A stretch of 64,000 bases of DNA, from NCBI GenBank assembly GCA_922989275.2, contig OV277864.1:6200001-6264000 (forward strand), given 5' to 3'. Numbering within the stretch: position 1 is the first letter of the stretch; every line of letters starts with the position of its first letter. The notes beneath the pieces are model-generated. The model did no database searches and was not told the origin of the DNA. It saw only the letters and a program-made list of their open reading frames with translations. Positions 660 through 63,738 of the stretch are shown piece by piece. The translations under genes were made by a program, and so were the position numbers. Source of the stretch: Gari tellinella (lineage: Eukaryota > Mollusca > Bivalvia > Cardiida > Psammobiidae).

Positions 660-860
660 CGGCTTAACTCAGTTGCGCCAAGTGGATTCCTCCATGCTTA
701 TATACTGGACTAGTCAACTTTTGATATAATGGGTGCCAGGTCTAAAGTTTCCTTTTCGTTTTGTTTTATATTGAAAACCTATACGCAAACAGTGTATACT
801 CTGATAAGACGCCACACTGTGCTTCGTCTGGTCAGAGTCTATACTGTTTGCATATGCCCC
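660..860. repeat. family G element with hairpin core
   Basis: A hairpin at 785-851 begins GCAAACAGTGTATACTCTGA and ends GAGTCTATACTGTTTGC. The upstream stretch (AAGTGGATTCCTCCA, TTTTGTTTTATATTGAAA) recurs before the G core at 48.70 kb, so the repeat unit includes at least 120 bp of flank. Confidence 0.6.
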
Positions 861-1189
861 TTTTATATGACTCTAGGAACAAATGGATTAAGAAAGTTCA
901 AATAATCGCAGTTTGACTGTAGTTGATTTATTGCATACAAGTCCTACGAACTGTCACCCTTTTAATTAGGTCTAAGGATTTTATTACTTAACACCCACAT
1001 ATATTGTTTAAGTAACCGACATCGCGCAAAACATAGGTGTTTTACGATTTGTTTTTTAAATTTCGATAAAGCTCGTTTTACGAAAAAGCTCTTCACATTC
1101 ATGGATTACGTTGAATAAAATACAGTACGAGATATTCTTTATAAAGCGCATGCCTTATTGTTATATTATGTAAATATTTTGACAATGAA

Positions 1190-1330
1190 GAAGACGTTTT
1201 TCTTTACCAATAAACGCATTTGGGCTACACCAATTACTTATAATGCAAACAGTTTCGAGCTGGATCAAACGCATGTTTATTGGGCATCTCATCAGGGACA
1301 AAACTGTTTGCCACTCAGAGATATATAAAT
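1190..1330. repeat. degraded family A element
   Basis: GAAGAAGACGTTTTTCTTT, then CCAATAAACGCATTTG, TGCAAACAGTTTCGAG and ACTGTTTGCCACTCAG: one outer arm of family A plus a decayed core. The other outer arm is absent. Confidence 0.5.
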
Positions 1331-1553
1331 CTTCAGCCTTTTCAAACGGTGGACATTTAATTGCGTTTTGTTTTGTTTATACAGGATGGAATATAATCTT
1401 CTCAATTTTATTAATAATATAATGTATTGTGTATAAATATTATGCTAGCTATGTTTTACTTTTTTGACATGGTCATAAAAAAGTGGTTTGCCTGTATTTC
1501 TAAAATTTAAGATTTAGATACTCGTATTTGGACTTAAGAAATATTGAATGAGT

Positions 1554-1662
1554 GTCAAACAGTTTGAATTCTGATTAGAAGCCGCGTTAAGCGGCGTCTG
1601 ATCAGGATCCAAACTGTTTGCAAATATTTGTTGTTCTCGGGGTAAGACAGTGAAGGGGTTAA
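1554..1662. repeat. family B right half with core hairpin
   Basis: The core runs GTCAAACAGTTTGAATTCTG to GATCCAAACTGTTTGC. It is followed by the B right end GGGGTAAGACAGTGAAGG ending in TTAA at 1659-1662. The left end is not clear. Confidence 0.6.
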
Positions 1663-1920
1663 CTCCTCCAACCTGCTGTTACACTAGTTGCTTCTATTGT
1701 GGCTGATGTCATGGTTAATTTACAGTTGTAGGAGTGTTAGGTTGAAAAATAATTATGTGACCACAATTCTGAAAACTACATTTATCAAACAAAACATTGC
1801 TGTTTGCCAATTAAGAGATCATATAACAAATTATTAATTGCAAAACCCAGTTTTGTGAAGCTAAAACCACTGAGGTGTATTTTAAACCTTTTGCAGCCAG
1901 GCACTATTAACACTCAATAT

Positions 1921-1990
1921 GAAAACAGTTTGGATCCAGATCAGACGCCGAGTACAGTGTTACCCGATGTCTGAACAGGATCCAAACTGT
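1921..1990. repeat. B-type core hairpin, decayed
   Basis: AAAACAGTTTGGATCCAG and GGATCCAAACTGTATGAC form an imperfect hairpin around GATCAGACGCC and GATGTCTGAAC. The arms have lost several pairs. Confidence 0.55.
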
Positions 1991-4266
1991 ATGACACTCA
2001 GTGTTTCCTAAGTGAAAACACGCATAAAAATAAAATAAAATATATAAGTAAAAGCAGACGAAAACTACATGTACGAGTATAAGTACACGATAATAGGGAA
2101 CAGTGTATGGACTAACTTTTCTCTGTCAGGACATCGTCTTCTAGAAAAGCGTTGTCTGCTTTCAATTATAACGTTTAGAATATTATGTTGTCAAACACAT
2201 CAGTATTATTGACAACATATTTGTATTCTGAACAGACGACAAATACACGTAATTAGGTGTCTACTTAGGTTCCAACCTGTTTGCATTGGGAAGTGAATAG
2301 GTTAATAACAGGAATATACACTGGAGAAGACATTATGCTCCCTATTTATTCTGTTGAGAATATAAGATTGTCATACTAATGCAATGCTTTTGCCTGTGTG
2401 ATTTATTACGTTTAAACGAAACATAATAACGTCCTCTCCACTAAAAGCAACACCTCTTCAAATTATATCATTTTAGACCACATGGATTATAACAACACAG
2501 ACAAAATTTAATTTTGCATAGTATTGGCAGTGTGTTTCTTGTCTAAGGCGTACATTGTAGCCAAGGCAATGTAAACATACTTCCACTGTACTATATTTTC
2601 GATGAAGAGTGCCAAAGCATCTAGCTTACTGAAAACCAAACGCAACGCAGACGAAGTTTAAAACCAACCTAATATACCACTTTACAGTAAAGTCAATGTG
2701 CACATATTCTTACATAGTTTATCATCATTTGAGTGATGTTTATATTCAATAAACTATGTAGTCTGCGAAAATGGCCCATGATGCCACACATTCTTTTGTC
2801 CATGATGGTCTAGCATAGTATTCAGGCAGTTAAGAGTGTCTCAGAATAATCAATTAAGAATGGGGATTCGGGTTTGATCTGGCTCCGAACAGTCTTGCGA
2901 TGAGCCTCATTCGTTTAGCACAAATGCGTTTCTTTGGAAAGGAAAGCCAAACGTATTTACAAACTTTGTATAATGTGGCTAATTGCTTTGTTCCTTCTAA
3001 TGTAAAAACCGGCATTTCTGTTCACTCAAACGTAAGAATTATTTCCACTAATGCCTAGATTAATGTCACAAGAAATGGCCAGGTTAATATCACAAGAGAA
3101 AGCCAGGTTATTTTTTTTTCACTTATGTGGCTAGCTATTTTAGTCACATAAGTATTGATTTATTAGCGTGTGGTTTCTTCAGACTTGTAATTGAACTGCT
3201 CATTAGTTTCCAATATACATGTGTTATGATAAGGTTAACAGTTCCTTGTATGATTTGAAGTCATTTATTCTTGCAGAGATTTACTAAAATACGACTCGTA
3301 TGTCATTTAAACGTATAAGAAACTTCGTGTTTAGCAATCATTAAAAAGGTGTTACTGGTCCAAATGTGTGTTGTCCATGGAAAGAGCCGGATAGTATGTT
3401 CACCTGTTCGCTGTATTACACCTAATACAGTGGTTATTTGCAAACAATTTGGATCCTGACCAGACGTCGAATAACTCTTGATGATATTGCATTAGTCAAA
3501 TTGTCTATAAATTTACATTAACTTTTAAATTTGATAATGTTTTTTAAACCAGATGATGACGTGATGGTAGGGATCCCTACCCTATGTTTCAGTACGTTGT
3601 TAAATCCCTGAAATGCATCAAAGGTTTCAATACCACCAATAAAAATAGTCTGATTAAAAATGGTGTGCTAACTACCATGAAGCTAACATGAAAATAGATG
3701 ACTGTGTGGCATGCAGTACCTGTATCACCGGAGAGTCTGCTATGTACAGACAATAAAATAAACGCAAAATCATTGTGTAGTCGTGTTTCAAGTTTATTTT
3801 GCAGTTGAATGGAGGTGTTTCATATATCCAGTTTTGTATAATAGAAATCAATGTGAGGGTGTATAGTTTATATATATATGTATATCATTGTGAATGTTGT
3901 AGAATGTTGATGGATGCATGTATGGGTGATTAGATAGATGAACTCCACTTTATAGCGAGTTTGTATCTTGAAGGTCAATGGCTCGTATTCGTAGTTTCAT
4001 CCAACAACCAGATGGATAAGGGTTTGCACGTTAGAGATTCTTGTGTTAAACAACAAGCGACTGAGTTACTAGGCCACGAACGTTACATGTACATGGATAT
4101 AGACAATCTTCCAGATTTCGTTTTACAAAATGTAATGTATAATAGTCTTACACAAACTTGCTCTGTAATCGATTAAATACTTTAAAGATCATTCTGCTTT
4201 ACTTTCAGTCTGTTTTACACTACCATCTGCAAATATATAGAAGCTATAACTAATTCTACTGGTACA
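1991..4266. other. no gene seen; AT-rich spacer
   Basis: Nothing coding is recognised. The stretch holds a half core at about 3440-3475 (CAAACAATTTGGATCC), a small palindrome at 3574-3583 (TAGGGATCCCTA) and several AATAAA words. A 71-codon open frame at 3961-4176 lacks an ATG start and any motif I recognise. Confidence 0.5.
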
Positions 4267-5923: not shown

Positions 5924-6173
5924 TACAGTGGAGAATCTGTTATTCTTTCCCGTTTAAACGCAAACGTACGCAAACGCAAAGCACTAAAACGTATAAAAGT
6001 ACAACTTTTAGACAATTCTGATAATTCATGTTTATCTTGGTGGCAAACAGTTTGGAGCCTGATCAGACGCCGGCTTACCCGGCGTCTGATCTGGCTCCAA
6101 ACTGTTTGTATTGTAAATAATAGTTTTAGCGTAAACGCGTTTATTGGGAAAGAATAACACATTCTCCACTGTA
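5924..6173. mobile_element. family A MITE, 250 bp, intact
   Basis: Reference copy of family A. Terminal inverted repeats are TACAGTGGAGAATCTGTTAT at the left and, on the other strand, TACAGTGGAGAATGTGTTAT at the right, both followed by TCTTTCCC. The left arm then has TTTAAACGCAAACGTACGC; the right arm has GCGTAAACGCGTTTATTGGG. In the centre is a near-perfect hairpin of about 65 bp (GCAAACAGTTTGGAGCC ... GGCTCCAAACTGTTTG) with loop GCCGGCTTACCCGGC. No open frame of transposase size is present, so it must be moved by enzymes encoded elsewhere. TA ends point to a TA-targeting (Tc1/mariner-like) system, which is inference. Confidence 0.88.
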
Positions 6174-9393: not shown

Positions 9394-9643
9394 TACAGTG
9401 GAGAATCTGTTATTCTTTCCCAATAAACGCGTTTACGCTAAAACGTTTATTTCTATTGCAAACAGTTTGGAGCCAGATCAGACGCCGGGTAACCCGGCGT
9501 CTGATCAGGCTCCAAACTGTTTGCCACCAAGATAAACATGAAATATCAGAATTGTCCAAAAGTTGTTCTTTTCTACGTTTTAGCGCTTTGCGTTTGCGTA
9601 CGTTTGCGTTTAAAAGGGAAAGAATAACAGATTCTCCACTGTA
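9394..9643. mobile_element. family A MITE, 250 bp, intact, reverse orientation
   Basis: TACAGTGGAGAATCTGTTAT to ATTCTCCACTGTA. The hairpin has loop GCCGGGTAACCCGGC. Relative to the 5.92-kb copy it is inverted, with the AATAAACGCGTTTACGC arm first. Confidence 0.86.
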
Positions 9644-12491: not shown

Positions 12492-12558
12492 GCAAAAACT
12501 GTAGACCCTGATGAGACGCCGCGTATAGCGGCGTCTCATCAGGGTCTACACTGTTTGC
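12492..12558. repeat. family G core hairpin, near perfect
   Basis: GCAAAAACTGTAGACCCTGA pairs with TCAGGGTCTACACTGTTTGC around loop GCCGCGTATAGCGGC. This is the cleanest G-type core in the window; the only visible mismatches are in the outer arm. Confidence 0.8.
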
Positions 12559-17284: not shown

Positions 17285-17551
17285 TATCGATAAGAGTGTC
17301 AACCAGTTTGTGTCCTGATCAGACGCCGCGATACGCGGCGTCTGATCAGGACCCAAACTGTTTGCAAACGCGCTTTAAGGCGGCATTGAGAGTGAAAGGG
17401 TTAAACAAAACTAAACGGAGTGTTATAAAATTTGGAAAATAATAGTAAATTCTGACGATTTATTTCAATCTAAGAAGAAAAGGAGATTGATAAGACACAG
17501 GGTTATCCGATCTGATATCTGAGCTTGCTCCAAACTGTTTGAAAAAGAAAT

Positions 17552-20962: not shown

Positions 20963-21264
20963 TACAGCGCCTCTTCCCTACAACATCGCTCAATTGGACA
21001 CAAAAATGTATGCGTTGTTCAGAGGGACTCGTTATAGGGAGGGCTTACATTTGCAAACAGATTGAATCCAAAAAAGCTGTTTGTCACTCGTCATTAAGTT
21101 TTATTTCCATCAAAATGAGTAACACAGCAGACGACAATTTTTAGAAGACGACATTGCAGCTGTGAATAGGTTGGACATAACAGTTCTATTTATGGAACTG
21201 CGATAAAGGCCGTTGTAAGGAGGGGTCGTTGTTGGAAGGGATGTTGTAGGGAGGGAGGACTGTA
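20963..21264. mobile_element. family D MITE, core mostly lost
   Basis: TACAGCGCCTCTTCCCTAC at the left; GTAGGGAGGGAGGACTGTA at the right. The core is reduced: GCAAACAGATTGAATCCA joins AAAAGCTGTTTGTCACTCG, so the central GATCAGACGCC part is deleted. The AGCAGACGACAATTTTTAG word is kept. A run of ten G at about 20928 lies just upstream. Confidence 0.72.
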
Positions 21265-21760: not shown

Positions 21761-22009
21761 TTAACACTTTCATGATCAAATTATTCTGGAGAAATGTTTA
21801 CCCTTCACCACTTTATTGTCGTGTGCATCAGTATTATTGTCTGCTAGACACGTTTCAAAGTTAGATTTAAGGTTGTATGACTTAATATATATCGACAAGA
21901 GTGTCAAACAGTTTTGGTCCTGATCAGACGCCGCGTAACGCGGCGTCTGATCAGGACCAAAACTGTTTGCAAAAGCGCTTTAAGGCGTCATTGAGAGTGA
22001 AAGGGTTAA
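21761..22009. mobile_element. family B MITE, perfect core
   Basis: TTAACACTTTCATGATC to GAGAGTGAAAGGGTTAA. Core at 21901-21971 with arms AACAGTTTTGGTCCTGATC and GATCAGGACCAAAACTGTT around GACGCCGCGTAACGCGGCGTC; I see no mismatch in it. Confidence 0.85.
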
Positions 22010-25322: not shown

Positions 25323-25572
25323 TACAGTGGAGAATCTGTTATTCTTTCCCGTTTAAACGCAAACGTACGCAAACGCAAAGCACTAAAACGTAGAAAAGAA
25401 CAACTTTTTGACAATTCTGATATTTCATGTTTATCTTGGTGGCAAACAGTTTGTAGCCTGATCAGACGCCGGGTTACCCGGCGTCTGATCTGGCTCCAAA
25501 CTGTTTGCACTGCGAATAATAGGTTTAGAGTAAACGCGTTTATTGGGAAAGAATAACACATTCTCCACTGTA
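25323..25572. mobile_element. family A MITE, 250 bp, intact
   Basis: TACAGTGGAGAATCTGTTAT to ATTCTCCACTGTA, same orientation as the 5.92-kb copy and nearly identical to it. One arm reads TTTGTAGCCTGATC where most copies have TTTGGAGCC. Confidence 0.87.
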
Positions 25573-28000: not shown

Positions 28001-28096
28001 AAAGCTCACAATAAATTTGATCATAAAGGATTTATGACGAGTGTTCGCGTCGCTAGGGTAGAAAGTGTTAAAACATTGGTTTTGTTATAATTCCAG

Positions 28097-34300: not shown

Positions 34301-37300
34301 TCTGAGTTAAAAACAGTTTGAAGCCTGATCAGATCCATTTACCACTTTCAAAGTGTTCCTTTAATGCAAAAAAAGTTCCGATTTTATACAGTTATGAATA
34401 TATATGATAAGAAATATTTTCTATTTTCTTGCAGATGGTTGCCTAAGGCAGGCTGGAAGTAAAGCAAAATGCGCATTTATGTGTATTGTTCATTACTTTC
34501 AGCCTACTTTAAGTGATCACCTGTCTTCAAAAGTAGGAACAAACTATGGGGTAAAAGGTAAAGCGATTGAGAAAATGACTGAAATTGACATAATTAGCAG
34601 AAGAAATCATTTAAGCGCAATAAGATATAGTAAATGTCATTATCCTTTTGAGCAACAAGTTTTTTCTCTGATTAAAAATATGTCCTTATTCTAAGCCGCT
34701 CTATCTTGGTATATATCTCTTTGACCTTAAACATGGTAACAGAGTATGTCTGAAAAATGGGTCGTCTGCGACAGTTTCTCCGGATGTATTGAATCTGAAA
34801 ATAATCATCTGCATGTCAAACTGTTTAGATTATGATGAGACGCCGAGTAACTCGGCGTCTCATCTGAATCTAAACTGTTTGCAAAAATCATCAGAAACGT
34901 GCCTGTTGCATGAAGACAGTTAATAAATACATTTTATTTGAACTCGCGAAACTATCTTTCATAATTCGTATACGACAAAATTACTTCTGAGGAAAATTGT
35001 TCAGAACGTTGACTGGTACAGGGCTGCCATTTCTCCGGATTTTTTCTAAGTCCACGGATTTTTATCCTAGCAGATGGTAGCTTAAAACAGGCTGAAAGTA
35101 AAACAGAATGCGCCTTAAGGCGCATTCTGCTTTACTTTCAACCTGTTTTAAGCAGTCATGTGTCTTCAAAACAAGAAACAGACTATGGGGTAAAGGTACG
35201 ATTAGTAAAATTGTGTCTGAAAAATTGAAAATTTTAAATCTTAGGATTTTTATGATCAACTTATGGCAGCCCTGCTGGTAAACTCAATTATCCTCACCTA
35301 GATCTCGTTATATGATCATCCTTTTCTCGTTCCATAACGGGCAAATTGACGTCAAAGTCATTTTTGACAAATCGAATTAATTCAAGTAGGACATGTGTTT
35401 CAAATCAGACATACCAGATATGTTATTGTTAGATATATATCTGAACACATTTTGTTAAAACATGTTGTAGAGTAAGCTTGATGATCCAATTATATTATAT
35501 TTTTCCTACGTTAAGTGCTTGAAATTATTTTTGTCCAATTGGATTATTTTTTTCAAATGTTCTGAACATTTAGGTTTGTAAACCAGTACTTACCAAACTG
35601 CTTACTCGACCAAATGTATGATTCGACTGTGATCAAATGCAATAACTGTCGCGGGAACATAACCAAAAAGAAACATCATTTTGCGAGAAACAAACAATCA
35701 AATAAACCAAATATAGTGCTTCCTCCCTACAACGACCCTTTGCACAACGATTTCATCCTTACAATAATAATTACCGCTGTTTCCCCCAAAAGACATTGAT
35801 GTTTAACGCTTTCACTGCTGCAATATCGACTGCTTAAAACTGGCGTTTGCTGTTTTCTTCTCAAGGTTACGTATTGAACATTTTGACAGAAGAAACAAAG
35901 ACGAGTGAAAAACAGTTTGAACCCAGATCAGACAACGCATTCGGTGGCATCTGAATCTGACTGTTTGCAAATGTAAGCACAGTCATAGTTTTTTTCTCCC
36001 TATAACAACTCCATCCGAACAACACATATCATCTTTGTCTCCCAACGGGTTATGTTGTAGAAAGTGACGGAGCACTGTACTGAAACCGTTTAACAGATTA
36101 GTGTTTATTGACCTTGTATTGTTATCTGCAACAATTCCGCGAGTTGCATTCTCTTTCCTATCACAAACTGTTGTCAAAGTTTCAAATAGTTTGGGTCAAG
36201 ATGTGTTACTTGAGATCTCACCTAAGTCCAAACTCTTTGCAGTAGTTAGCCTAAACCTGCAACGTGCTAACAGAAGCTGTAACATCACGAAAAAACGTTT
36301 ACTACTTATTTACAGTACTATGATTTACATGAATTATAAGTATATCTATCCAGTATACAGGTTAACCCATGTGTGGCTAGCGTCTCTTAAAATAGATATA
36401 GGCAAACAGTGAAGACTCTAATCAGACGCCGCATAATGAGGCGTCTGGTCAGAGTCTACACTGATTGCTTATATAATGTTTAATATAAAAAATACATAAA
36501 AGTTAGACCAGGCAAACTGTATATATATAATGGACAACTCCAAAACATACATAGAAGAATCCACTTTGCATAAATAGGTTATTCTTTTAATTTCGTTACA
36601 GGATGAGAAGAATCAAGTTCTTGTCACAAACGTTTGGCTTGATCAGGTAAGTCTTTATCAAAGTAGCCCATTTTAATGCCTTATCCCGATTACAGCGGTT
36701 ATTCGCAAACATTTCTAGGGGCCGTTTCATAAAACTTAGTACGAAAAAAACGGTCGTAAGTCAAAACTTTAAAATACATTTAATTTATGATATATCTATC
36801 TAATACATAGAGAAATCAGAAATTAAATGTATTTAAGGTTTTGACATACGGTCGTTTTTTGTCGTACGAAGTTTTATGAAACGGGAACCAGGACTCTTTT
36901 TCAGTATGAAAAATATGACATTTTGGGATCGCATCTTTGTAATTCAGTACAATATCTGTTTCTGTTGTAGAGTCACGTGATAGAATGCGAATAGTTCTAT
37001 TGTTCTTATTGATAGGTGTGAAATAAAGACAGTTATAGTGATTGGTTTCTGTGTACATACGCATTAGCTAAACTGGTCAGTTAGATAACTAAACTAAGCT
37101 TCTCGATATACAGGTACATGTACAGTGGAGAATCTGTTATTCTTTCCCGTTTAAACGCAAACGTACGCAAACGCAAAGCACTAAAACGTAGATAAGTACA
37201 ACTTTTGGACAATTCTAATATTTCATGTTTATCTTGGTGGCAAACAGTTTGGAGCCAGATCAGACGCCGGGTTACTGCACTGCAAATAATAGTTTTAGCG

Positions 37301-40300
37301 TAAACGCGTTTATTGGGAAAGAATAACAGATTCTCCACTGTAGTACTGAGCAGAAGAAAAAAAATTGATGATCTTAGAAACTGCTGGAAACACTCCCATG
37401 AATATAACTTACATTGACGTTTTCAAACAATGTAACAGTTTAAGAACTATCGACTCAATTACACGAAAAACTCATTATGGAACACAACATGCATGTTTGC
37501 ATTGAGGAATTTAGGTCAGTGCTTTCGTTAATAAATTGTTATATCAGATATAGAAAGTAAAACAACTGAAATACATTAATTGATATTGCTTTGGAAGACA
37601 ATATGACAGTTACAGGGCTGCCATTTCTCCGGATTTTTCCTAAATCTCCGGATTTTCCCCCAGTACATAGTAGCTTAAAGCAGGCTGAAAGTAAAGCAGA
37701 ATGCGCCCTAATGCGCATTCTGCTTTACTTACAGCCTGCTTTAAGTAGTCGCATGTCAACAAAACAAGCAAAAGGCTAATGGGTAAAGGTACGATTCGTT
37801 AATTCGCCCTTGAAAAATGCATGTTTGGAAATCTTAGGATTTTTCATGTCAACTTATGGTAGGCCTGCAGTTAAATCAGAATGATTTATTGGTTTTTACA
37901 GGAGTGGGAAGACGAGTTCATGCGTTGGAATCCTGTTGATTTCGCCAACATCACCACTTTGAGGATTCCATGTCACAAACTCTGGTTACCAGACATCGTC
38001 CTCTACAATAAGTAAGTTTTGATCTTTACAACCTTGCACAATATGTAAGAAGTTGCCTTCATAGTTTTATACATTAAATAAGTCTTGACCTAAAAAGTAC
38101 AATTTATTGCTGTTTCTAACATTGCACAATGCGTACGACTTTACTTTCGTAGTCATATACAATAAGCAAGTCTTGACATTTACAGTATTGTGAAATACAT
38201 TAGCCTTGACAGTATGTAATCCTTAGGATTTATAGCCTTATAGAACACGTACATATTTGTATTGGTCTTCTTAGTCGTGTACACTACTAAAATCGTGGTC
38301 TTCATAGTATTGTGCAAGAATATATGCTGACATTGATAAACAACATATACGAGTAAAGTCAGAAATTAAATACAGTATCAAACCCATTTAGATACAGTGA
38401 TGGTTGCAAATGTAGTAGCTTAAGGAGAGCAAAAGGCACAATAGAAAGCTATTGAGTGGGTCTTTTTACCTTCATCTTGCTTTAAGACGTATTCAGACAT
38501 TTTCATATACTACATGCATTGCCTTCTTTGAAATAGACGAATTACTCAAATAAACGTACTTTCTCAGTAGACACTTGAATATACATACCTATTTTCGGAA
38601 CGTGCGACGTTTTAACTTTGAATTAGGGGCAAGTTCGGCTTAAGGTCCATTTATCGAGGCCCGACTACATCTCGATTCTATTGACATTGAGAAGAGAATT
38701 TATTAAATTAGACGTTTTTCACTAAATGCGACAACAGTGGCATTTGCAAACATACGCCAGACTTAAAATGTCAGTAGCTGCTTGCTGAAACCACCCACTG
38801 AGACGTTAAATTAAATTATATGTCTCAAATGCACATGGGTGTACTCGGTATGAAAAAATTACAGTCTAGCAGAAGGGTAACAGGTAAATGCAGGACAGAT
38901 GTGATGCAGAATGCTGCTCTAGGGAGCTTTCAGCCTTTATTAAGACCAGCTTTAACCTTCTACACGATACAAGCGAGACCGAGATTATTGCTGCAAACAA
39001 TTTAGATCCAGATAAGACGTCGAGTAATTCGGCGTATCATCTGGATCCAATCTGTTTGACACTCTGATTATATTTTCTTAACCCTTTCACTCTCAATGAC
39101 GCCTTAAAGCGCGTTTGAAAACAGTTGGGGTCCTGATCAGACGCCGCGTGACGCGGCGTCTGATCAGGATTCAAACTGTTTGACACTCGTATCGATATGT
39201 TGTAAGTTTTTTAAGTTTATGTTTATATGTTGTAAGTTATATTACATTGAATCTTACTTTTAAACGATCTTGCAAACAATAAAATTGAAGCAGACGACAA
39301 TGAAACGGTGATGGGGTAAAAATCTTACGAACAATTTGGCAGCAAAAGGTTAAAGACAATGCAGATAAACCAAGTCTGAGAAATGTTGCAGACGACTCAT
39401 TTTACAGACGACATTAATTCAGAGTGCAGAGGGTTGGTTAAACCACAGGTTTTCGGCGCGTAAGCTATGAAAACCCCCCCCCCCCAGCTACTACCCCCAT
39501 AAATCTTTCAAAATGAGTCAAAATACATCCATATGTTCAACAAACATCCTTAACAAATGTTTCAAGAAGTTTAAAAAAAATAATTTTTTGTTCGTATCAT
39601 GTATGTATACAACGAAAAGGTGGATGTGAATTCAAAGCCATCAACTTCCCAACCTTGTCATTTTGTCATTTTTGGGCCGATTTTGACAAATGATGGCTTA
39701 TTATTTACATTTAACAGTTCTGTTCAAAGAAAATTAGCTCACAGCCCAAGCAAGACACGAGCACAAGTGAAGAAATAAAAAGTTCGATAGGCACCTTATA
39801 CGGACTCATTCGTCAACCTTAATTTTTGGACTAATTTTACATATATTTACTTACTGTGTTGGCGGTCTTTTTGATTGTAAGGTTGTGGAATAGGGTTTAT
39901 ATTTTATGTACACTGTTCGTCTTAATAGGTGAATATAGGAGATAAGAGTGAGGTTGGGCGCCCCTAAACCCAGGTTTAACCCCCAGTGGTTGTTAATAAT
40001 TAGTTTATAATGAATTATTGATTGCTACTGACCGTACCAAGGCGGGCTCCTATATTCACTTTGCTTTATGTTTGTCTTGCGTGTTGTTTTCTATTTAGTG
40101 TGTCGATGAAGGAATGGTATTGCGTGTGTGTGTGTGTTTGTTATGGTATGACTGTGTGTGTGTGTGTTGCTTGAGAGGTGGGTGTATTGTTTGTGTTACG
40201 TTTCCTGCTTGAGTCTTTCGTATTTATTTGTTCGTCATACAGAGATTAACAAGTGCATTTGCGACCATGCATTACACCATGGTACGGGTAATTAATAGAA

Positions 40301-43300
40301 AATGAAATATATAATAAATACCTTTTGAATTATCGGTAAATGAGCATTTCAGTTACGAAATAAATTTCTAGATAACTTTCGTTTTCAAGTTTCGGTTGAC
40401 AAACGGATATGATTATTGGTCGTATTCGAATCATCGAGTTTGTTGTCAACGAAAACTGGGCGGAGCAAATGCGCGATTTTGACCCGACTCGAATAGAAAT
40501 TGTGGTCAAAGATTTTATGGTTTGACAACATTTTGTCAACGGAAAACATCAAGTGGTGATTCGAATAGAACTTGTTGACAACTATTTCAACTAACGCGAT
40601 AGTTGTCCTGATTCGAATACGACCAATTGAGGCGCTTGAGTTTTGCGTCATTTCCTGCTTTGAAACTGGTTCTCGGTTTCGCTAGAATGATAATAGTTTG
40701 ACTGGGCAACCACTCGTTTGTTTGAGAAAAATGTTTCCGTATAAGGGGTCTCCCTACTTTTCGAGTCCCCATGCGCGTGTTCGCCGATTGCTTTGATTTT
40801 TTCCCAATTAACGTCAAAGAAAACTGTTTGCTGTAAACAATGAGCCATCAATTGTCCAGATCGTCCAAGATTTGACAAAATTACAGGGTTGGGAACTTAG
40901 GGGTTGCTTCTGCAAGGCGCTTTTTCATGGCAGCCTTTACTAATTTACTTATAAATTAGCAAAATAAAATATTTTTTTTAAATTTCATGAAACTTCAGGA
41001 AATGTTCTTTTATGGTGATTATTGAATGTATAGATAGATTTTAGGGTATTTTATCCACGTTTGGTGGTGGTGGAGGGGGGGGGGGATAGCAGCTGGGGGT
41101 AGTGTCATAGCCTACGGGCCGAATGCCTATGGGTTAAACAACAAATTGTCTAGTTAGACACCAAACATTAATATACCAATATCATGCTGATATCAAGTTT
41201 ACTTCAAAACTGCAGCGCTAAATAACATACATGTACATGTACTAGTATTGTGTGTCTCAGTGCCGTAAAACCCAACTCATCCATCCATCCTATTAAAAAC
41301 TGCAGTATGCATTATCTATCAAACTTAAGTCAAATACCTAAAATTTTTAATTTTAACAAATAAAAGCAGACGATAACTGTTTAAAATTGATGACGTCATT
41401 ACAGCGAAAGGATTAAAGAAGGATTTTAGATGAGGATGTCATAAAACTTGGGTCCTTATCAGATACGGAATTTCTCGCGCTCTGGTCCAAAATGGTCTCA
41501 AATTCAAGTAAAATTGCGGTTATCAGGAAATATATACATGAACGCTCGTAGAAGCCAAAATTGCATTAAACAAACACGCAATAGACTCAAAGTTAATACG
41601 CACCGAATTTACCCATTACGCCTTTAATACGTCTTTTTATGCCTTTAATTCATTTATTCTGAATTTCATCTTAAAAAAAGAGTTCCTCTTGATACAGTCA
41701 TGAATATGCACCACAATAAATATTGTTTATATCGTAGCAGATGGAAGCTTAAAAAAGGACTGAAAGTAAATAATTGAAGAAAATGAATCTAATTTACAGT
41801 CATAAAAATATACATTTTTTTTTCTAAATCCTAGCAGATGATAGCTTAGAAAGGATAAGATAAGAGTCAGCAAGACATGCCAGAATAATATAAGCTTTGA
41901 CGTGCTTTTATAACTGACTATTTAACAGATGTATGTACACAAAAACAAAGCGGCTACAAATAAGAAATGATAAACAGCAATACAGTATAGCATACAGTGG
42001 AGAATCTGTTATTCTTTCCAGTTTAAACGCAAACGTACGCAAACGCAAAGCGCTAAAACGTAGAAAAGAACAACTTTTGGACAATTCTGATATTTCATGT
42101 TTATCTTGGTGGCAAACAGTTTGGAGCCTGATCAGACGCCGGGTTACCCGGCGTCTGATCTGGCTCCAAACTGTTTGCACTGCAAATAATAGTTTTAGCG
42201 TAAACGCGTTTATTGGGAAAGAATAACACATTCTCCACTGTATGAGTATAAGAAAACTGCTAATTCTAGGTACTAATATGTTGCCGATAACCAATAAAAT
42301 TGAGTTGAGTTGAGTTGGTAATCCTGTCATTATAAACTAGTTTAAAAGTAAAGCAGAATGCACCGTAAGCCGTATGCTACGAAAGCCCCGTGGTGACATT
42401 CCATATATCTACTTCCAACTTCCATCTTCCGAACTTCTTACTTCTTACTTCCAAGATAATTTGCTATTATGGTTATTGTATAACGCCCGAGTTCTAAGTT
42501 CCGACTTCTTAGTTCCGACTTCCATGTTCAAAGTTACAAGTTCCGACTTCCATGTTCCAAGTTCCATATTCCGACTTCCAAGTTCATGTTCCACGTTCTG
42601 ACTTCCAAGTTCCATGTTCCGACTTCCATGTTCCATGTTCCGACTTCCACATTCCGACTTCCACGTTTATCCTCAGAACATGTACAGACTATGACGTCAC
42701 TGACATTTCGCACGTGTTAAACACATTGCAAGGGAAGTGAAACATGAAGACAAAAACAAATAAAACATGGCATACACGCTTGTTTCAACAATGATAAGTT
42801 TGTTGATTTAATTTCATAATACTTTTATGTATTTAGTAAGATGTATAAAACCATTAATTTCCCGGTTAAACGAATATAATAAAGGGTAAAGGAGACATGG
42901 AATCATGTCGTCTCATCCACTTCTTTATCCAATTCCAGGTACATTGATAAGAAAGATAACTTTATGTAGCCGGGTTGAGTATATAGTGAAACGACGAGAG
43001 CATTAGATGGGTATGTGTTAGCGGTCTGGTATATCACTATCAGTCGGAAAACCGTTTGCCCGTAACCTAGATCCAGGGGTCTAAAAATAGATATGCGTGA
43101 AAGAAAACGGCGCGAAACTATGACGTCATGAGCAACGTAAGAATTTTGAAGTAAAAATGTGGAAGATGGTAGTCGGAAGTTGGAACATGCAACATGGAAC
43201 ATGGAACATGGAACTTGGAACTTGGAAGTCGGAACTTGGAAGTCGGAATATGGAACATGGAACTTGGAACAAAAAACGTAGAAATTTTAACTTGGAAGTG

Positions 43301-46300
43301 GGAATATGGAATGTCACCACGCGGCTTTCGTACTATTCTGCTTTAATGTCAACCTACTTTATATGGTCACATGTCTTCAAAATTAGAATCAAACTATGGG
43401 ATAATGGGTAACACATTGTAGCATTGCCATTTATAAAGTTTTGGATTTATGGGTTAAAGTAAAATCTCGTAATGTATATTTTATTTATTCTTTAAGCGCA
43501 GCGGAGTACACCGACGGTCTCATGCCGGCGAACGCCATGGTGGACTTTGACGGCAACATCTTCTGGCCTGTCCCGACGAAGCTCCAGAGCTCGTGCAAAG
43601 TTGACGTGACATATTTCCCGTTCGACGAACAAACCTGTACCATGAAGTTCGGCTCGTGGACCTACGATGGTTTTCAGGTAAGGCGTTGTTATCCCCCTTA
43701 TTAGATAGAGTTTATTCATGTAACAATATGCATATCATGGCAACCAATAATAAGTATACATAGATCAACCAAAAAGTAACAAATCATGTATACAAATGAC
43801 GAGATTCATGACAGGCACACCAATACCAAGGATAACACGAACAAAAGAAAATCATTTCCCCTTATTTCCAGAATATTCAGAAATTTAATTCACTTTATAA
43901 TCTTTCTGCATCTAGGTGGACATTACGAACCGAACAGAGAAGGTGGACCTGAGCAACTACGTGAATAATGGAGAGTGGGAGCTGGTATCCATAGAGATCA
44001 TTCGTAACGTTGTCTATTATGGTTGCTGTGACGAACCTTTCCCTGACGTCACTTTCATCACCAAGATACGACGTAGAACATTGTACTACATGTATAACGT
44101 CATATTCCCCTGTATTATGATGTCAGCGCTAACGTTACTAGTGTTTTGTTTACCACCAGACTCAGGGGAGAAAATAGCTCTTGGTATGTATTACATGTAC
44201 AGTGCTCCCTCCCTCCCTACAACGGCCCTTCGAAAAAAACGACTCCCTCCATACAACGACACTTGTCGCTGTTTCCCCAAACAGGACATTTATAACAAAC
44301 TATTTCGCTGCTGAAATATCGTCTGTTTAGACTTGAGCTCTGCTGTTTTTCTCAACGTTACATATAGGCAGACATTTTGATAGAATAAATATAATGACGA
44401 GTGACAAACAGCTTGAATCCAGATCAGATGCCGCGTTACGCGGCGTCTGATCTTGATTCAACCTGTTTGCAAATGTAAGCCAAGTCTTAATTATCCTTGG
44501 TAATCCATATTTAAATTTTACTTGACATTATGTTCTGTAAATATGACACAATGTATGTAAAACATTTGAAATAAATACTGTTTAAACTAATTTTCCCTCC
44601 CTATAACGACTCCCTCCAAACAATACTTACACCCTGTGTCTCCCATTGGGTGTCGTCGTAGGGAGGTAGCACTGTATCCATGCGTCGATTCAGCAATATA
44701 TCTCAGAAAGAGTCCAACCGAGAATATTTAACACACTGTGCAGAATACGTTACTCTTTCCAAAACAAACACGTTTATTTTAAAAGTCATTATTTTAACTG
44801 CAAACAGACTATTGGTGACTTAATGAAATCCTTTGCAAACATTTGTGTCTGCATTTTGTTTCATTCGACTTCGTAAAACAGGTCTCTAAAATCGTTTAGA
44901 CCGGTAATGTTTTTGAGATAGGGGTTTTAACTTAATCACCCCTAGAACTTCAAATCGAAAAGTCCTTGCCTCATATAAGTATAGTCCTTTATTGACAATT
45001 TAGGGTTTGATGTTACAATATATTTCATATGACAAACAATACTGACTCTAATCAGAGGGCTCCTTTAGAAGGTCACTGATCAGAGTCTACTCTGTTTACA
45101 TATGACAATTTTCTCTTCACAGGACTATTTGTAATTGACGAGTATACTCGTCGCAATGGTTTATGCAGTACATTGACAAAATCAAGCCTCATTAGTATGA
45201 AAACAGACAAGACTAAAGCGAACGGGAACTTTTCAATTTGAAGCTTTAGGGTGGATAGGGTTACTTTAGCGGTCTTCCAAGATGTATTTCTCATTACAGG
45301 TATAACGGTACTCTTGGCTTTTTCTGTATTCATGTTGGCAGTTGCTGAAAATCTTCCAGAGACGTCTGAATTTGTTCCGCTGATAAGTAAGATCCATTTA
45401 TGATTTACAGTAGGGAAGGAGTTATTCTTCTCCAATAAACCCGCTTGTGCTAAAGAATTATTTCCATTGCAAACAGTTTGGAGCCAGATCAAACGCCGGG
45501 TTTAGTTTCGTTTAATATTCTAGCAGATGGTTATTAAAAACAGGTTTAAGCCTTAAGGCACATTCTTCTTTACTTTCAACCTGCTTTAAGTGGTCACCTA
45601 TATTCAATTTTAGAAACGGGATATGAAGTAATGGGTCAAGCGGAAAAGAAAATCGTTTTGTACAATGTATCTACTTACATTATCCGGTCACTATACATTA
45701 TACTCTAATGTAGATACACCTTTAATGACATCTTAAACCCTTCACTGCCATGTAGTCATCAATGTTAAACAATTGTACAAACATGGAAGCAGTTTGTTAA
45801 ACAGTAGAAAACACTTAATTATTTCCCAAATAAACACGTTTTCTCACTCCGGTTGACACACAAACAGTGTACCTGTAAAGAGTAAAATCTTCGTTTTCAA
45901 CAATGCAGACCCCGATTGGAGGGCTCCTACAGTAGCCCTCTGATCAGGGTCTGCATAATATTTGTCATTTACAATGTATTCTAAAACCAACCCTCAATTT
46001 GTAAAAAATGGACTAAACTATGATTTGACACTAGAAATGAACTTTTGAATTCTCAGGGTTAAGTGTTTTAAATTAAATAGTAAAGTTTTTCAAAAGGTGT
46101 CATTTTCTACACTCAATTACATAGGAATTGCGTCTAGTTCGTGTAATCTGGGAATAATAACGTCTTCAATCTGTATCACATTGCTCGAAATAAGTCGGCT
46201 ATTTAAGACTTACATTAATAGTTCAAAAGACTTTAGTGATTAGTAGACGTAATGTATAGAGCTACATTCAAATACCGAATACAGTAAAATATATCTATTT

Positions 46301-48700: not shown

Positions 48701-48765
48701 GCAAACAGTGTACACTCTGATCAGATGCTGTACTATGTGGCGTTTGATCAGAGTCTACACTGTTT
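48701..48765. repeat. family G core downstream of the receptor stop
   Basis: GCAAACAGTGTACACTCTGA and TCAGAGTCTACACTGTTTT around TCAGATGCTGTACTATGTGG. Upstream flank AAGTGGATTCTTCCAGAC matches the 0.66-kb copy, so this repeat probably occupies much of the 3' UTR or flank. Confidence 0.65.
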
Positions 48766-48930
48766 TATGCCCCATATGTGAGGTCGTTGGCGTACATCGG
48801 TTAACTTTGTGTATTTGTGTATAGCGGAAAAGATGTCATTATTTCACATTTAAATGAAAACTAAACAAGAAAGGTATTTTCATTCGTCAGGTAATAGAAG
48901 GTTCTATTCGATCATTTGGCAATGTAAGCA

Positions 48931-49900: not shown

Positions 49901-50114
49901 TTAACCCTTAGCCCGCCAACTTAATTGTCGTCTGCTATATTTCTCGTCTGCTTAAAGTTTCAAAATGCTTCAAAGTTGCTCAAAATTGCTGAAAATGTTG
50001 ACCGAGAGTCAAACAGCTTGGATCCGGATGAGACGCCGAGTTACTCGGCGTCTCATCCGGGTCCAAGCTGTTTGCATATGGAGCTATAGTCGTGAGTGGC
50101 AGGCTAAGGGTTAA
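49901..50114. mobile_element. family B MITE, GAGACG variant, 214 bp
   Basis: TTAACCCTTAGCCCGCCAAC to GGCAGGCTAAGGGTTAA. Core GTCAAACAGCTTGGATCCGG ... CCGGGTCCAAGCTGTTTGC, loop GCCGAGTTACTCGGC, with GAGACG/CGTCTC in place of CAGACG/CGTCTG. Confidence 0.88.
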
Positions 50115-50466: not shown

Positions 50467-50680
50467 TTAACCCTTAGCCTGCCACTCACGACTATAGCTC
50501 CATATGCAAACAGCTTGGATCCGGATGAGACGCCGAGTAACTCGGCGTCTCATCCGGATCCAAGCTGTTTGACACTCGGACAACATTTTCAGCAATTTTG
50601 AGCAACTTTGAAGCACTTTGAAACTTGAAGCAGACGAGAAATATAGCAGACGACAATTTATTTGGCGGGCTAAGGGTTAA
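50467..50680. mobile_element. family B MITE, GAGACG variant, inverted partner
   Basis: TTAACCCTTAGCCTGCCACT to GGCGGGCTAAGGGTTAA. It is the near reverse complement of 49901-50114 (same length, same variant core, loop GCCGAGTAACTCGGC). Confidence 0.88.
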
Positions 50681-50871: not shown

Positions 50872-51456
50872 TACAGTGAGGAGAGAGTTGTTATGGAGAT
50901 GGAACAACAATATCCTTAGAGTACTGTGCATGACTTGGCTTACATTTGCATACTGTTTGAACCCAGATCAGACGCCGCGATATGCGGGGTCTTATCTGGG
51001 TTCAAATGTTTGTCACTCGTCTTTATGATTCTGTCACACATCAGATACGAAACTTTGAGAAAAATACAGCAGACGCCAAATTTAAGCAGACGATATAGCA
51101 GCAATGAAAGCATAATACATAATTGCCTTGTGTTGGGAACAGCAGTAAGCATTTGTTGTTACAGTGGAGAATCTGTTATTCTTTCCCGTTTAAACGCAAA
51201 CGTACGCAAACGCAAAGTACTAAAACGTAGAAAAGAACAACTTTTGGACAATTCTGATATTTCATGTTTATCTTGGTGGAAAACAGTTTAGAGCCTGATC
51301 AGACGCCGGGTTACCCGGCGTCTGATCTGGCTCCAAACTGTTTGCAATTGAAATAATAGTTTTAGCGTAAACGCGTTTATTGGGAAAGAATAAAGTTTTC
51401 TCCACTGTAGGAGGGAATCGTTGGTCGGAGGGCCATTGCAGGGAGGGAGTACTGTA
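50872..51456. mobile_element. family D MITE interrupted by family A
   Basis: TACAGTGAGGAGAGAGTTG at the left; GCAGGGAGGGAGTACTGTA at the right. Core CATACTGTTTGAACCCAG ... CTGGGTTCAAATGTTTG, loop GCCGCGATATGCGGG. The A element 51160-51409 sits in the right part. Confidence 0.8.
51160..51409. mobile_element. family A MITE, 250 bp, nested in D
   Basis: TACAGTGGAGAATCTGTTAT to TTTTCTCCACTGTA. The flanks TTTGTTG and GGAGGGAATCGTTGG join at a single TA to restore the D motif (TTGTTGTA-GGAGGGA), so TA was duplicated. Confidence 0.9.
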
Positions 51457-51922: not shown

Positions 51923-52138
51923 TACAGTGGAGAAAACGTTATTCTTTCCCAATTAACGCGTTTATGCTTAAACTATTATTTCCATTGCAAACAGTTTGGA
52001 GCCAGATCAGACGCCGGGTAACCAAGATAAACATGAAATATCAGAATTGTCCAAAAGTTGTTCTTTTCTACGTTTTAGCGCTTTGCGTTTGCGTACGTTT
52101 GCGTTTAAACGGGAAAGAATAACGTTTTCTCCACTGTA
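51923..52138. mobile_element. family A MITE lacking one hairpin arm
   Basis: TACAGTGGAGAAAACGTTAT to TTTTCTCCACTGTA. After CAGACGCCGGGTAAC the sequence jumps to CAAGATAAACATG; the second arm, about 34 bp from the hairpin centre outwards, is gone. 216 bp. Confidence 0.85.
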
Positions 52139-54093: not shown

Positions 54094-54463
54094 TACAGTG
54101 CTCGCTCTCTACAACAACACCAAATGAGAGACAAAGCGTGTACGTTGTTCGGAGGAAGCTGTTATAGGGAGGGAAAATTAAAACTTGAATTACATTTGCA
54201 AACAGCTTGAATCCAGATCAGACGTCGCGTTACGCGACGTCTGATCTAGATTCAAGCTGTTTGTCACTCGTCATTATATGTTTTCCGTCAAAATTTCCAC
54301 TTATATGTTACTTTGAGAAAGACAGCAGACAACAAATTTAAGCAGACGATATTGCAACAGTTAAAGGGTTCGAAAAAATGGTCTTGTTTGGTGAACAGCG
54401 GCAAGTGTTGTTGTAAGAAGGAAATCGTTGATGGGAGGGTCGTTGTGGGATGGGAGCACTGTA
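54094..54463. mobile_element. family D MITE
   Basis: TACAGTGCTCGCTCTCTAC to GGGATGGGAGCACTGTA. Core CAAACAGCTTGAATCCAGAT ... ATCTAGATTCAAGCTGTTTG, loop GTCGCGTTACGCGAC. Confidence 0.85.
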
Positions 54464-58350: not shown

Positions 58351-58352
58351 CT

Positions 58353-61295: not shown

Positions 61296-61421
61296 AAACA
61301 CAGTACCCACTCGAAACTGTTTAATTATATACTGTGCATCATGAAATATAAACTGCAGTATTTTAGCTATGTAGGAGTATTTTGCTAATTGCTACAATGG
61401 AGAAGACATTTTGGCAATTAT

Positions 61422-61671
61422 TACAGTGGAGAATCTGTTATTCTTTCCCGTTTAAACGCAAACGTACGCAAACGCAAAACGCTAAAACGTAAAAAATAAC
61501 AACTTTTGGACAATTCTGATATTTCATGTCTATCTTGGTGGCAAACAGTTTGGAGCCTGATCAGACGCCGGGTTACCCGGCGTCTGATCTGGCTCCAAGC
61601 TGTTTGCACTACAAATAATAGTTTTAGCGTAAACGCGTTTATTGGGAAAGAATAACACATTCTCCACTGTA
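61422..61671. mobile_element. family A MITE, 250 bp, intact
   Basis: TACAGTGGAGAATCTGTTAT to ATTCTCCACTGTA. One arm change in the core (GGCTCCAAGCTGTTTG). A lone A end (TACAATGGAGAAGACATT) sits about 30 bp upstream. Confidence 0.87.
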
Positions 61672-61694
61672 ATTATAAATTGCATTGCTTTAGC

Positions 61695-62149
61695 TGCAGT
61701 AGAGAAGACGCTATTCTTTTCCCTTTAACCCTTTACCTCATAGCCTGTTTCTAGTTTTGAAGACAGGTGACCACTTAAAGCAGGTTGAAAGTAAAGCAGA
61801 ATGTGCCTTTAGGCACATTCTGATTTACTTTCTGCCTGCTTTAAGCTAAATTCTGCTAGGCTAAATAAAATAGTTGTAATAGTAATTGTTAATGAGGGTA
61901 TAAACTTGAACTATTTTCTTCATCGTAGGAATAAATTAAATACGCTAAAAGTCGCTTCTGTGGGGTAAAGGGTTAAGCGCAAACGGAACGCATTTCAATT
62001 AAAAGTAGGAAATGACAACTTGTTTGCAATTCTGACTATACAGTTTAATCTGACTGGCAAAGTTTTTGAAGTCTGGTTCAAAGCTGTTTGCACTGGAAAT
62101 AGTAGTTTAGCGTAAATGCGTTGGAAAGAATAACGTCTTCTCCACTGTA
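61695..62149. repeat. family A host split by family C
   Basis: TGCAGTAGAGAAGACGCTAT with TCTTTTCCCTTTAA at the left; after the insertion GCGCAAACGGAACGC resumes and the copy ends GTCTTCTCCACTGTA. Core half CAAAGCTGTTTGC near 62080. Confidence 0.75.
61735..61976. mobile_element. family C MITE nested in A at TTAA
   Basis: TTAACCCTTTACCTCATAGC to GGGGTAAAGGGTTAA. Removing one TTAA plus the element restores CCTTTAAGCGCAAACG, the A arm. Hairpin AGCAGAATGTGCC ... GGCACATTCTGATTT. Confidence 0.88.
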
Positions 62150-62364
62150 TAATCATAGGAGTGTTTGGCTAAATGATACATGTACTTGATCAAGCTGATG
62201 ATTCTACTCATCTCCTTTTGTCACCGTTATAGAAACCTTTTAAGTATTTGATGTAATGTTTAACATGTTTTTGTAAGAAAAGTATGTACATTACCAAAAA
62301 TGAAAAGAAATAAAGAGATAATTGCTTATGTAATTATTGTCGAATATTTGGAAAAAAGTATCCC

Positions 62365-63035
62365 ATTTACATTTGAAACGTATCCTTGCTACATGGAAAA
62401 CATACCCCTGTTACATGTACATTGAAAACATACGCCTGTTACACGAGAATGTGCCCTGTTTCTTGGGAATCCAAGCTACCCCTGTTACATGGAAAACGTA
62501 TTCTTATTAGTTGGGAAACGTTCATCTGTATCATGGTACACGTACCTGGTACTTTGAAAACGTACCCCGGTTACTTATGAAACGTATTAATGTTACGTTG
62601 GCAAAGTTCCCCTGTAATATGGGAAACGTTCTCCTGTTGATTGGAATAGTGCCTCTGTAACATCGGACACATGCCCCTGTTACATGGAATACCTACTCTT
62701 TGTACATGGGCAACGTTCCCCTTTAAGACGGGACAGAACGTACTCCTTTTACCTGGAAAACGTACTCCGGTTACTTGGAAAACGTACCCTTGTTACATTG
62801 GCAACATTTTCCTGCTACATGGGACACGATATATTCCTTTACTTGGTACATGGGAAAGGTACCCTTTTTACACTGACAACGTTTCCCCGTTACATCGGAA
62901 ACGCTTTTCTGTTAATTGGGAAATAATCCCTTAACATGAAAAAAGTACACCCTGTAACATGGAAAACGTACTCCATTTACTTTGGAGAAATAACCTGTAT
63001 AATATGGAAAACTTACTCCATTTAATAAGGAAAAT
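62365..63035. repeat. degenerate minisatellite, about 22-bp period
   Basis: About 29 units resembling GAAAACGTACCCCTGTTACATG. Units vary by substitution and short indels; GAAA, CGTA, CCCTGTTAC and CATGG are the conserved words. Open frames at 62386-62580 and 62671-62934 follow the repeat and show a repeated peptide, but have no start context or exon signals. Confidence 0.75.
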
Positions 63036-63150
63036 ATAAGCGACGTCTGATCTGGATCCAAACTGCTTTCATTGTCGATTTATGTCGACTTCGGCAGTGA
63101 AAGGGTAACACAGGTACAGGTAAAGTATTCTCCACTGTACATAGCTTACT
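63036..63150. repeat. B right half and A end fragments
   Basis: AAGCGACGTCTGATCTGGATCC-type core arm with GCAGTGAAAGGGTAAC, then AAGTATTCTCCACTGTA at 63138. Short relics of two families side by side. Confidence 0.5.
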
Positions 63151-63364
63151 AATGTTAACGACCAGTGTAGTGCACATTCCTTATTTATTCATGATAATAC
63201 AGCAGATGCGTGCTTTATATTACCATTACCTAGCAAAGAAAACTGCATACAAACCCATAGATCTCTACTTCAAGTGTGGCAAAGATGTTTTTTTATATTC
63301 ATAATCAACTTAACTTGTCCAACTCGATTAAGCTCTTTTCAGCTTGACGAAAGTAAGATATATA

Positions 63365-63738
63365 TACAGTACTCCCTCTCTACAACAACACCCTGGGGGA
63401 GACACAGATTGTGTGTGTTGTTCGGAGGTAGTCGTTATAGGAAGGGACAATTAAGACTTTGCTTATAGTTGCAAACAGCTTGAATCCAGATCAGACACCG
63501 CGTAACGCGGCGTCTGATCTGGATTCAAGCTGTTTGTCACTCGTCATTATAGTTATTCTATCAAAATTTCAATTATATATGAACCTTTTAGAAAAAAACA
63601 GCAGACACAATTTCAAATAGACGATATTGCAGCATTAAAAGCGTTAGAAATAATTGTCCCTTTCAGGGAATTGCTACAAGGGTCGCTGTAAGGAGGGAGT
63701 CGTTGTTGGAAGGGTCGTTGTAGAGATGGAACCCTGTA
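63365..63738. mobile_element. family D MITE
   Basis: TACAGTACTCCCTCTCTAC to TAGAGATGGAACCCTGTA. Core CAAACAGCTTGAATCCAGAT ... ATCTGGATTCAAGCTGTTTG, perfect arms, loop ACCGCGTAACGCGGC. Inner ACAGCAGACACAATTTC and CGATATTGCAGC. Confidence 0.85.

Follow-up and report, generated by a model that had tools for sequence, protein, structure and literature searches.

A 65-bp palindrome with matched arms is common to TA-ended and TTAA-ended MITE families of the bivalve Gari tellinella

How do short transposable elements with different ends and different target sites come to carry the same interior, and how do the two arms of that interior stay matched? A stretch of 64,000 nt of Gari tellinella contig OV277864.1 (the window; the host genome measures 1.598 Gb) raises both questions, as it contains miniature inverted-repeat transposable elements (MITEs) that share a hairpin. 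A sequence-only reading of the window had claimed a core of about 65 bp in four or more MITE families with unrelated ends, differing in both arms at once, and had proposed a cassette that moves between transposons. We analysed the window together with a second sample of 200 kb from 20 other stretches of the genome (L009-L028, round coordinates on contigs C1-C17). The results lead us to favour, with a probability of roughly 0.55, a model in which the hairpin is an old MITE core that is constrained in its source elements, has its arms copied onto each other and is rarely passed between transposon types.

The shared core itself was confirmed. The word GATCAGACGCC, with up to 2 mismatches, has 142 matches in the window against 5.9 +/- 2.5 expected, and none of 100 shuffles scored as high. 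Aligned copies form a 65-bp near-perfect palindrome that runs from CAAACAG through GATCAGACGCC, the centre and GGCGTCTGATC to CTGTTTG. Its 32-bp arms make 32 pairs around a single centre base and leave no true loop; the letters previously described as a palindromic loop extend the stem. Core-word positions and positions of paired-arm variants were merged by hand into 72 candidate cores in the window, of which 60 had placeable outer boxes (CAAACAG, CTGTTTG) and the 12 others were dropped. In the second sample 67 of 86 candidates were retained (0.335 per kb), and a reversed-sequence control yielded 9 candidates, none of which was retained. Window copies occur in both orientations and span the length claimed for them, from a first hairpin at 786-850 to a last full one at 63472-63536. 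Genome-wide, the inner-core pattern GATCAGACGCCGNNTNANNCGGCGTCTGATC has 160,229 matches.

The outer boxes are spaced at exactly 65 nt in 45 of the 60 resolved window copies, and pair counts refer to these 45 cores; the 15 of other length were excluded, copy 12510 among them, since the script had put its left box in the wrong place. Their 1440 pairs comprise 1230 Watson-Crick, 61 G-U, 38 A-C and 111 other combinations. One mismatch is characteristic of a family: 16 of the 45 cores have T/T at pair 17 and 15 of those 16 belong to family A, whose consensus stem is for this reason 31/32 paired. The sequence-only reading had also proposed to fold the cores, and six hairpins folded with DNA parameters gave strong folds of -21.8 to -41.4 kcal/mol (z -10 to -17).

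Family labels, the split into young and old copies and the copy lists used below were set by hand from the flanks. The elements and hairpins on which the argument draws are the following.

41993..42242, plus strand: family A element (TACAGTGGAGAA ... TTCTCCACTGTA, 250 bp), hairpin 42113-42177
5924..6173, plus strand: family A element, hairpin 6044-6108
9394..9643, minus strand: family A element, hairpin 9459-9523
25323..25572, plus strand: family A element, hairpin 25443-25507
51160..51409, plus strand: family A element, hairpin 51280-51344
61422..61671, plus strand: family A element, hairpin 61542-61606
49901..50114, plus strand: 50-kb TTAA family (TTAACCCTTAGCC), hairpin 50010-50074, inner arm GATGAGACGCCGAG
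50467..50680, minus strand: 50-kb TTAA family, copy 2, hairpin 50507-50571, 32/32 Watson-Crick
21905..21969, plus strand: B-type hairpin, 32/32 paired, two paired changes relative to the B consensus, right TTAA 36 nt downstream
39118..39182, minus strand: B-type hairpin, right TTAA (TTAACCCTTTCACTCTC at 39078) at 36 nt
17300..17364, plus strand: B-type hairpin, right TTAA 36 nt downstream
44198..44676, plus strand: family D element (TACAGTGCTCCC) with a B-like left half within, hairpin 44405-44469
54094..54463, minus strand: family D element, hairpin 54199-54263, paired C-G to T-A change relative to the D consensus
63365..63738, minus strand: family D element, hairpin 63472-63536
20963..21264, minus strand: family D copy, hairpin collapsed through internal deletion
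34817..34881, plus strand: family E hairpin (AGATTATGATGAGACGCCGAG), right TTAA 38 nt downstream, one GTCGTCTGC box upstream
786..850, plus strand: family G hairpin (GTGTATACTCT...), TTAA 37 nt downstream
36403..36467, minus strand: family G hairpin, TTAA at 37 nt once turned round
48702..48766, plus strand: family G hairpin, TTAA at 34 nt once turned round
12493..12557, plus strand: G-like hairpin with a GATGAG inner arm, TTAA 33 nt downstream (start taken from the arm-variant listing)

The same hairpin occurs in elements of two end types, which bears out the contrast drawn earlier between A and D with TA ends and B with TTAA ends. Families A (TACAGTGGAGAA / TTCTCCACTGTA) and D (TACAGTGCTCCC) have TA-bounded TACAGTG inverted ends, which we take to be Tc1/mariner-like. 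B, the 50-kb pair, E and G are of TTAA type, with the hairpin mostly 36-38 nt inside the right TTAA; the 50-kb pair is TTAA-bounded and has terminal inverted repeats with 15 of the first 16 letters inverted. Among the 28 window copies that are neither A nor D, a TTAA lies 33-38 nt past the hairpin in 17 (6% chance per copy, p 1.7e-14), the distance being 36-38 nt in 16 of these, and nine have no fit. The fits come from B1, B2, E and the 50-kb pair, from one G copy, from copy 12510 at 33 nt and from three more copies that are less certain; two further G copies fit once turned round. The 67 copies of the second sample show the same preference, with 11 TTAA at 36 nt and 2 at 37 nt where 0.62 are expected per offset. 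Over 35 non-A copies, the 130 nt to the left contain 21 CGTCTG boxes on the same strand and one on the other (0.03 expected per copy and strand); 25 A copies have a single box.

The left flank of D matches that of B over about 108 bp left of the hairpin (z 13.5, 16.6, with the D flank entered in the intact-TTAA form present in 2 of 7 D copies), and for this reason D is not independent of B. The match starts at the position of B's TTAA, and D is on that account best read as a TA element carrying the left half of a B-type TTAA element, presumably through insertion. The left flank of the 50-kb family likewise matches (z 13.8, 14.1), and that of E does so weakly (p 0.058, 0.158). Beyond the hairpin, A and the TTAA families have just some edge letters in common (GAGTG on the left, CAA on the right). 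An origin of A as a nested B element was considered and rejected, there being no flank homology. Of the families with supposedly unrelated ends, G and the 50-kb pair are thus TTAA families like B and D includes the left half of a B element, and the sharing left to explain is that of A with the TTAA families only.

Matched changes in the two arms are far more frequent than in controls. A hand-picked set of 24 among the 45 cores of 65 nt had two-sided changes at 14 of its 32 pairs, compared with 8.7 in shuffles and 5-8 when the arms were slid, and there were 53 two-sided cells compared with 13.1 +/- 2.9 shuffled (0/500 as high) and 6-11 slid. The 50 distinct cores among the 67 of the second sample repeated this result, with 17 two-sided pairs (10.3 shuffled, 8-12 slid) and 96 two-sided cells (31.2 +/- 4.0 shuffled, 15-19 slid). 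Exact genome-wide counts at pair 30 gave 31,727 C-G against 516 G/G or C/C, matched G-C falling outside that count; when up to 3 mismatches elsewhere were allowed in the window plus the 200 kb, pair 30 and pair 21 were each matched (C-G, G-C or A-T) in 88 of 96 cores. The paired arm variants that the sequence-only reading had named were all found in window cores. Many of the exchanges are not transitions: transversions make up 8 of the 15 paired types seen at least 2 times in the second sample and 10 of the 19 in the window table (hand count). Together with the near-equal numbers of G-U (56) and A-C (54) mismatches in the second sample, this favours exact copying over change by way of wobble pairs.

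These paired changes separate families rather than copies. Relative to the B consensus, D has three paired changes and no one-sided one, the 50-kb family four and one, and A two and one; the consensus sequences of G and E, based on 3 copies and 1 copy, show more one-sided changes. Departures from the family consensus are mostly one-armed within A (67 one-armed, 4 paired), B (39 and 6) and D (16 and 1). Paired changes between families with one-armed changes within them suggest that pairing is kept in active source lineages and decays in copies after insertion.

The hairpin is also conserved relative to its surroundings. In an alignment of 23 of the 25 copies later labelled A, divergence from the consensus in 12 young copies was 8/780 in the hairpin compared with 144/2217 in the flanks (hairpin lower in 12/12), and in 11 old copies 144/710 compared with 669/1890 (11/11). 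A elements of the second sample chosen by their ends alone gave 27/1110 compared with 168/1797 for inner flanks outside the stretch used for choosing (17/18 lower; sums by hand). The A hairpin has therefore diverged 4-6 times less than its flanks in young and ends-only copies and 1.7 times less in old ones. B2 (34/438 in the hairpin, 148/710 in flanks, the right-flank figure being short since that stretch stopped at an internal TTAA after 14 nt), B1 (28/260 and 90/548, p 0.033) and D (33/384 and 252/1817, p 0.004) point in the same direction more weakly than A. The hairpin is very common in this genome and unusually well conserved.

Do the cores travel with their own ends? On a tree of cores, A, D, G and the 50-kb pair need one change each (support for A is only 59/87), the seven labels jointly need the minimum of 6 changes, and B forms the stem group; the tree is poorly resolved, with 30 of 38 inner branches unresolved. 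Both flanks could be assigned in 84 of the 127 copies of window and second sample, and in 81 of these 84 they belong to a single family; in the 43 others one or both sides resisted assignment. Two of the discordant assignments (window 22293 and L022:6787) are weak. The third is clear: L017:812-1104, on the minus strand, is a chimera in which the left end and arm of A meet the right arm, flank and end of D at the palindrome centre, and its right terminal TA is lost. The hairpin is present in 18 of 18 A elements chosen by ends alone, three of which have 12-35 columns deleted, and no duplication is visible by eye at the hairpin borders of window copies. As far as a weak tree can show, cores thus appear to keep largely to the ends of their family. 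The sequence-only reading had held that such grouping, together with a loss of the paired changes in a wider alignment, would reduce the sharing to simple descent; the grouping is largely there, and the paired changes persist in the second sample. A freely moving cassette is not what these data describe, given labels at the minimum of changes, matching flanks and a D family explained by its B half. Separately, A and D copies at window 37121-37342, 51923-52138 and 20963-21264 have lost one half of the palindrome or its middle, as expected of unstable palindromes.

The fixed TTAA spacing suggested a transposase site, an idea that was examined on autonomous elements. The genome has 86 matches to PF13843, the domain of piggyBac-type transposases, at least 19 of which cover the whole domain without stops; several of these genes have identical scores, which suggests recent activity. 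Eight of the 86 loci were fetched, L030 and L032-L035 among them. L032 is an autonomous 2642-bp element with ends TTAACCCTTAGACCGCCA / TTAACCCATAGCCCGCCA and a 613-aa frame that matches PF13843 at 1e-90, and its ends match the left end of the 50-kb MITEs at 17/18 letters on each side. It contains no hairpin-like palindrome (best 11/14 pairs), nor does L034, which has other TTAACCC ends (best 12/14 pairs). Homology between L032 and the 50-kb pair is clear at the ends only; a longer gapped alignment on one side scored 21.5, which may lie within chance. Origin of the 50-kb interior by internal deletion from L032 was rejected, both clear interior homology and the palindrome being missing, with another parent possible. 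The six other fetched loci had no clear end pair. In the search for a partner of B1, B2, E and G with the same ends, neither L032 nor L034, the two with clear ends, had TTAACCCTTTCAC ends. The hairpin at L035 is a separate MITE. An intron-like stretch precedes the PF13843 frame of L033, which may be a host gene that arose from a transposase. At L030 an unrelated palindrome (CTAGGGGTACGTGACCGTACC...) lies at oriented 3281-3342, downstream of its piggyBac-type frame and beyond a TTAA-type end seen by eye.

We envision a scenario in which the palindrome would be under constraint in source elements and the identity of its arms would be restored by copying one arm from the other, through hairpin template switching during replication or repair. 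Such copying would produce paired changes at once, with no G-U intermediates, and inserted copies would decay afterwards. Transfer between transposon types would be rare: D may have gained its hairpin when a TTAA element inserted into a TA element, and A could have acquired its own in a separate event, possibly recombination at the palindrome, where one A x D chimera has been seen. The constraint would serve propagation of the MITE irrespective of which transposase cuts its ends, the option we favour.

Several results weigh against this account. The left flank of A has no homology to that of B or D (p 0.55-0.99). The TTAA at the left border of the B-like insert is intact in only 2 of 7 D copies, 3 of the 7 have a TTAA at 17 nt on the right side of the hairpin, and no D copy lacking the insert was seen. 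Selection for symmetry would account for the paired changes equally well, and template switching is a process inferred here rather than directly observed. Within families the excess of paired changes over permutation is modest (B 6 against a mean of 2.5, p 0.0105; A p 0.051; D p 0.20), and neighbouring paired changes are few, copy 21922 having two. Sequence conservation of the outer and inner boxes goes beyond what arm copying alone explains. Changes confined to a single copy are rarer in the A hairpin than in flanks (7 and 48 in the window, p 0.028; 27/1885 and 103/3871 when unlike flank sets are pooled, p 0.003), a pattern that may reflect constraint or conversion acting on resident copies, or subfamilies missing from the sample. 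The L033 transposase locus, without definable ends, adjoins three hairpin-like sequences with variant inner arms (oriented about 540-610 and 736-806, upstream of the frame, and 2920-2980, downstream), and the MITE-only status of the hairpin comes from few cases, namely two autonomous elements.

Other explanations share parts of this evidence. In a possible but tentative one, the hairpin acts as an amplification module independent of the transposase: as a perfect DNA palindrome it would raise the spread of any short carrier, whether a piggyBac-type or a Tc1-type enzyme cuts the ends, be absent from autonomous elements and remain symmetric by arm copying while it drifts. Somewhat less probable is a subterminal transposase-binding site of TTAA elements, comparable to the palindromic targets of piggyBac-type C-terminal domains and symmetric for two subunits. 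The near-fixed spacing to the right TTAA in both samples and the strand bias of the CGTCTG boxes fit such a site, as does the precedent of piggyBac, with its subterminal repeat and paired CRDs on palindromes (PMC2532691, PMC11707139). However, the hairpin is missing from L032, whose ends are like those of the 50-kb MITEs, and so belongs there to a MITE-only interior, which speaks against a transposase site, if on few cases; L034 also lacks it, TA-ended A retains it, and the variable spacer remains paired, which a two-box site would not need. The ambiguous L033 locus makes this reading slightly more likely than it would otherwise be.

The hairpin might instead act as RNA, either a small-RNA precursor or a structured transcript, with pairing selected in the RNA. 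Hairpins of this size suit Dicer-type processing, the fold is very stable (with DNA parameters), and G-U outnumbers A-C in window cores (61 and 38, p 0.027; 32 and 21 distinct kinds). Yet the G-U excess is not repeated in the second sample (56 and 54), about half of the paired types are transversions without a G-U intermediate, the centre is one base and copies lie in both orientations. Rfam had no matches at gathering scores in the window. As to the RNA-derived head of a short interspersed nuclear element (SINE), ARAGORN also found no tRNAs there, although degenerate heads would escape both searches. We regard the RNA reading as unlikely, and give no better odds to plain descent, in which one ancestral MITE would have given rise to all families, A included, with ends later exchanged by recombination inside the palindrome. 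The L017 chimera is what such exchange would leave, and the 516 genome cores with G/G or C/C at pair 30 could come from chimeras or from point changes; against this, it is the single clear chimera among 84 assignable copies, its right TA is lost, its multiplication is unseen, and a deletion between adjacent A and D elements would yield the same product. Least probable of all appears an independently mobile cassette inserting into unrelated MITEs: it would account for the lack of anything in common between A and the TTAA families beyond the hairpin and some edge letters, but cores seem to keep to their own ends on the weak tree, the flanks match in 81 of 84 assignable copies, every A element chosen by its ends carries the hairpin, and no border duplication was visible.

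Parts of this picture are known: MITEs, the sharing of domains between element classes (PMC6887750) and template switching (PMC8794818). The highly conserved V domain is common to V-SINEs and the Tc1/mariner MITE MER6 (PMC6887750) and is likewise a conserved interior in elements with unrelated ends, a Tc1/mariner MITE included; V is, however, a SINE domain; in the present case TTAA MITEs take the place of the SINEs, and what the carriers have in common is a long palindrome whose arms show matched changes. On the 3' side of piggyBac, a 31-bp spacer is followed by a subterminal repeat of 19 bp (PMC2532691), and palindromes of piggyBac-type ends are bound by paired CRDs (PMC11707139). The TTAA ends of the 50-kb family match a PF13843 element and its symmetric site lies at a set distance from the right end, but the hairpin measures 65 bp instead of 19 bp, is missing from the matching autonomous element and also occurs in TA elements. 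Homogenisation of the arms of inverted repeats by template switching has been proposed for RNA hairpin stems (PMC8794818, PMC8604942, PMC7202029), and several paired changes without intermediates look alike here; the difference is that the present cases are MITE families at very high copy number, in which the process is inferred. A survey of bivalves found MITEs to be a considerable part of genomes and left them unclassified (PMC10294476); its main text contains neither 'palindrom' nor 'hairpin'. We found no description, in the open-licence literature, of a long palindrome with matched arms common to TTAA and TA MITEs, which is not proof of absence, and a literature search with the core letters returned no paper relevant by title. 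The hairpin pattern occurs at 0 places in IMG/VR and 0 in bacterial and archaeal contigs.

The reasons for the huge copy numbers of MITEs are poorly understood. A hairpin that is common to two end types, constrained, and missing from the one matching autonomous element studied suggests a property that lies in the MITE. Its more than 160,000 copies are a rare natural record of how the arms of a palindrome remain matched, and with such numbers selection and template copying should be decidable from sequence alone.

The hairpin is one of several palindromes in this genome. The window and the 200 kb together hold 69 of this family, 5 with CAAACAG boxes but other inner arms, 30 of a group b (mostly 68-75 bp), 10 of a group c (mostly 96-101 bp), 4 of a group d and 5 others. 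As long palindromes with matched arm variants thus extend beyond this family, a general process, arm copying for instance, gains in likelihood over a function tied to a single sequence. The five with a CAAACAG/GATCAG frame and other inner arms (AGAGGGCTCC or GGCCCC) are at L014:4611, L014:9362, L016:5238, L022:5501 and L009:110. A second family, CTTAAAGCAGGCTGAAAGTAAAGCAGAATGCGCC..., is about 70 bp long with arm-matched variants (such as AAACAGAAAGCTCC) and was found at 30 places in the window and L009-L028, including window 13517, 35114, 37707 and 60429. A fold-back of 245 bp at 31504-31748 has 121-nt arms that are 85% complementary; it belongs to the GAATCGTCT group, whose members elsewhere show differences in both arms. 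Window 42543-43311 has numerous overlapping repeats built of short TTCCATGTTCCGACTT-type units, perhaps a tandem array.

A protein search with a hairpin-spanning frame returned 1 candidate, and none scored; hairpin-derived frames of this kind may occur in predicted proteins of other animals. The window also contains parts of a nicotinic-receptor-like gene: frames at 28072, 43916 and 47591 match Neur_chan_LBD and Neur_chan_memb, and many hairpins sit between the exons of this gene over window 28072-48460.

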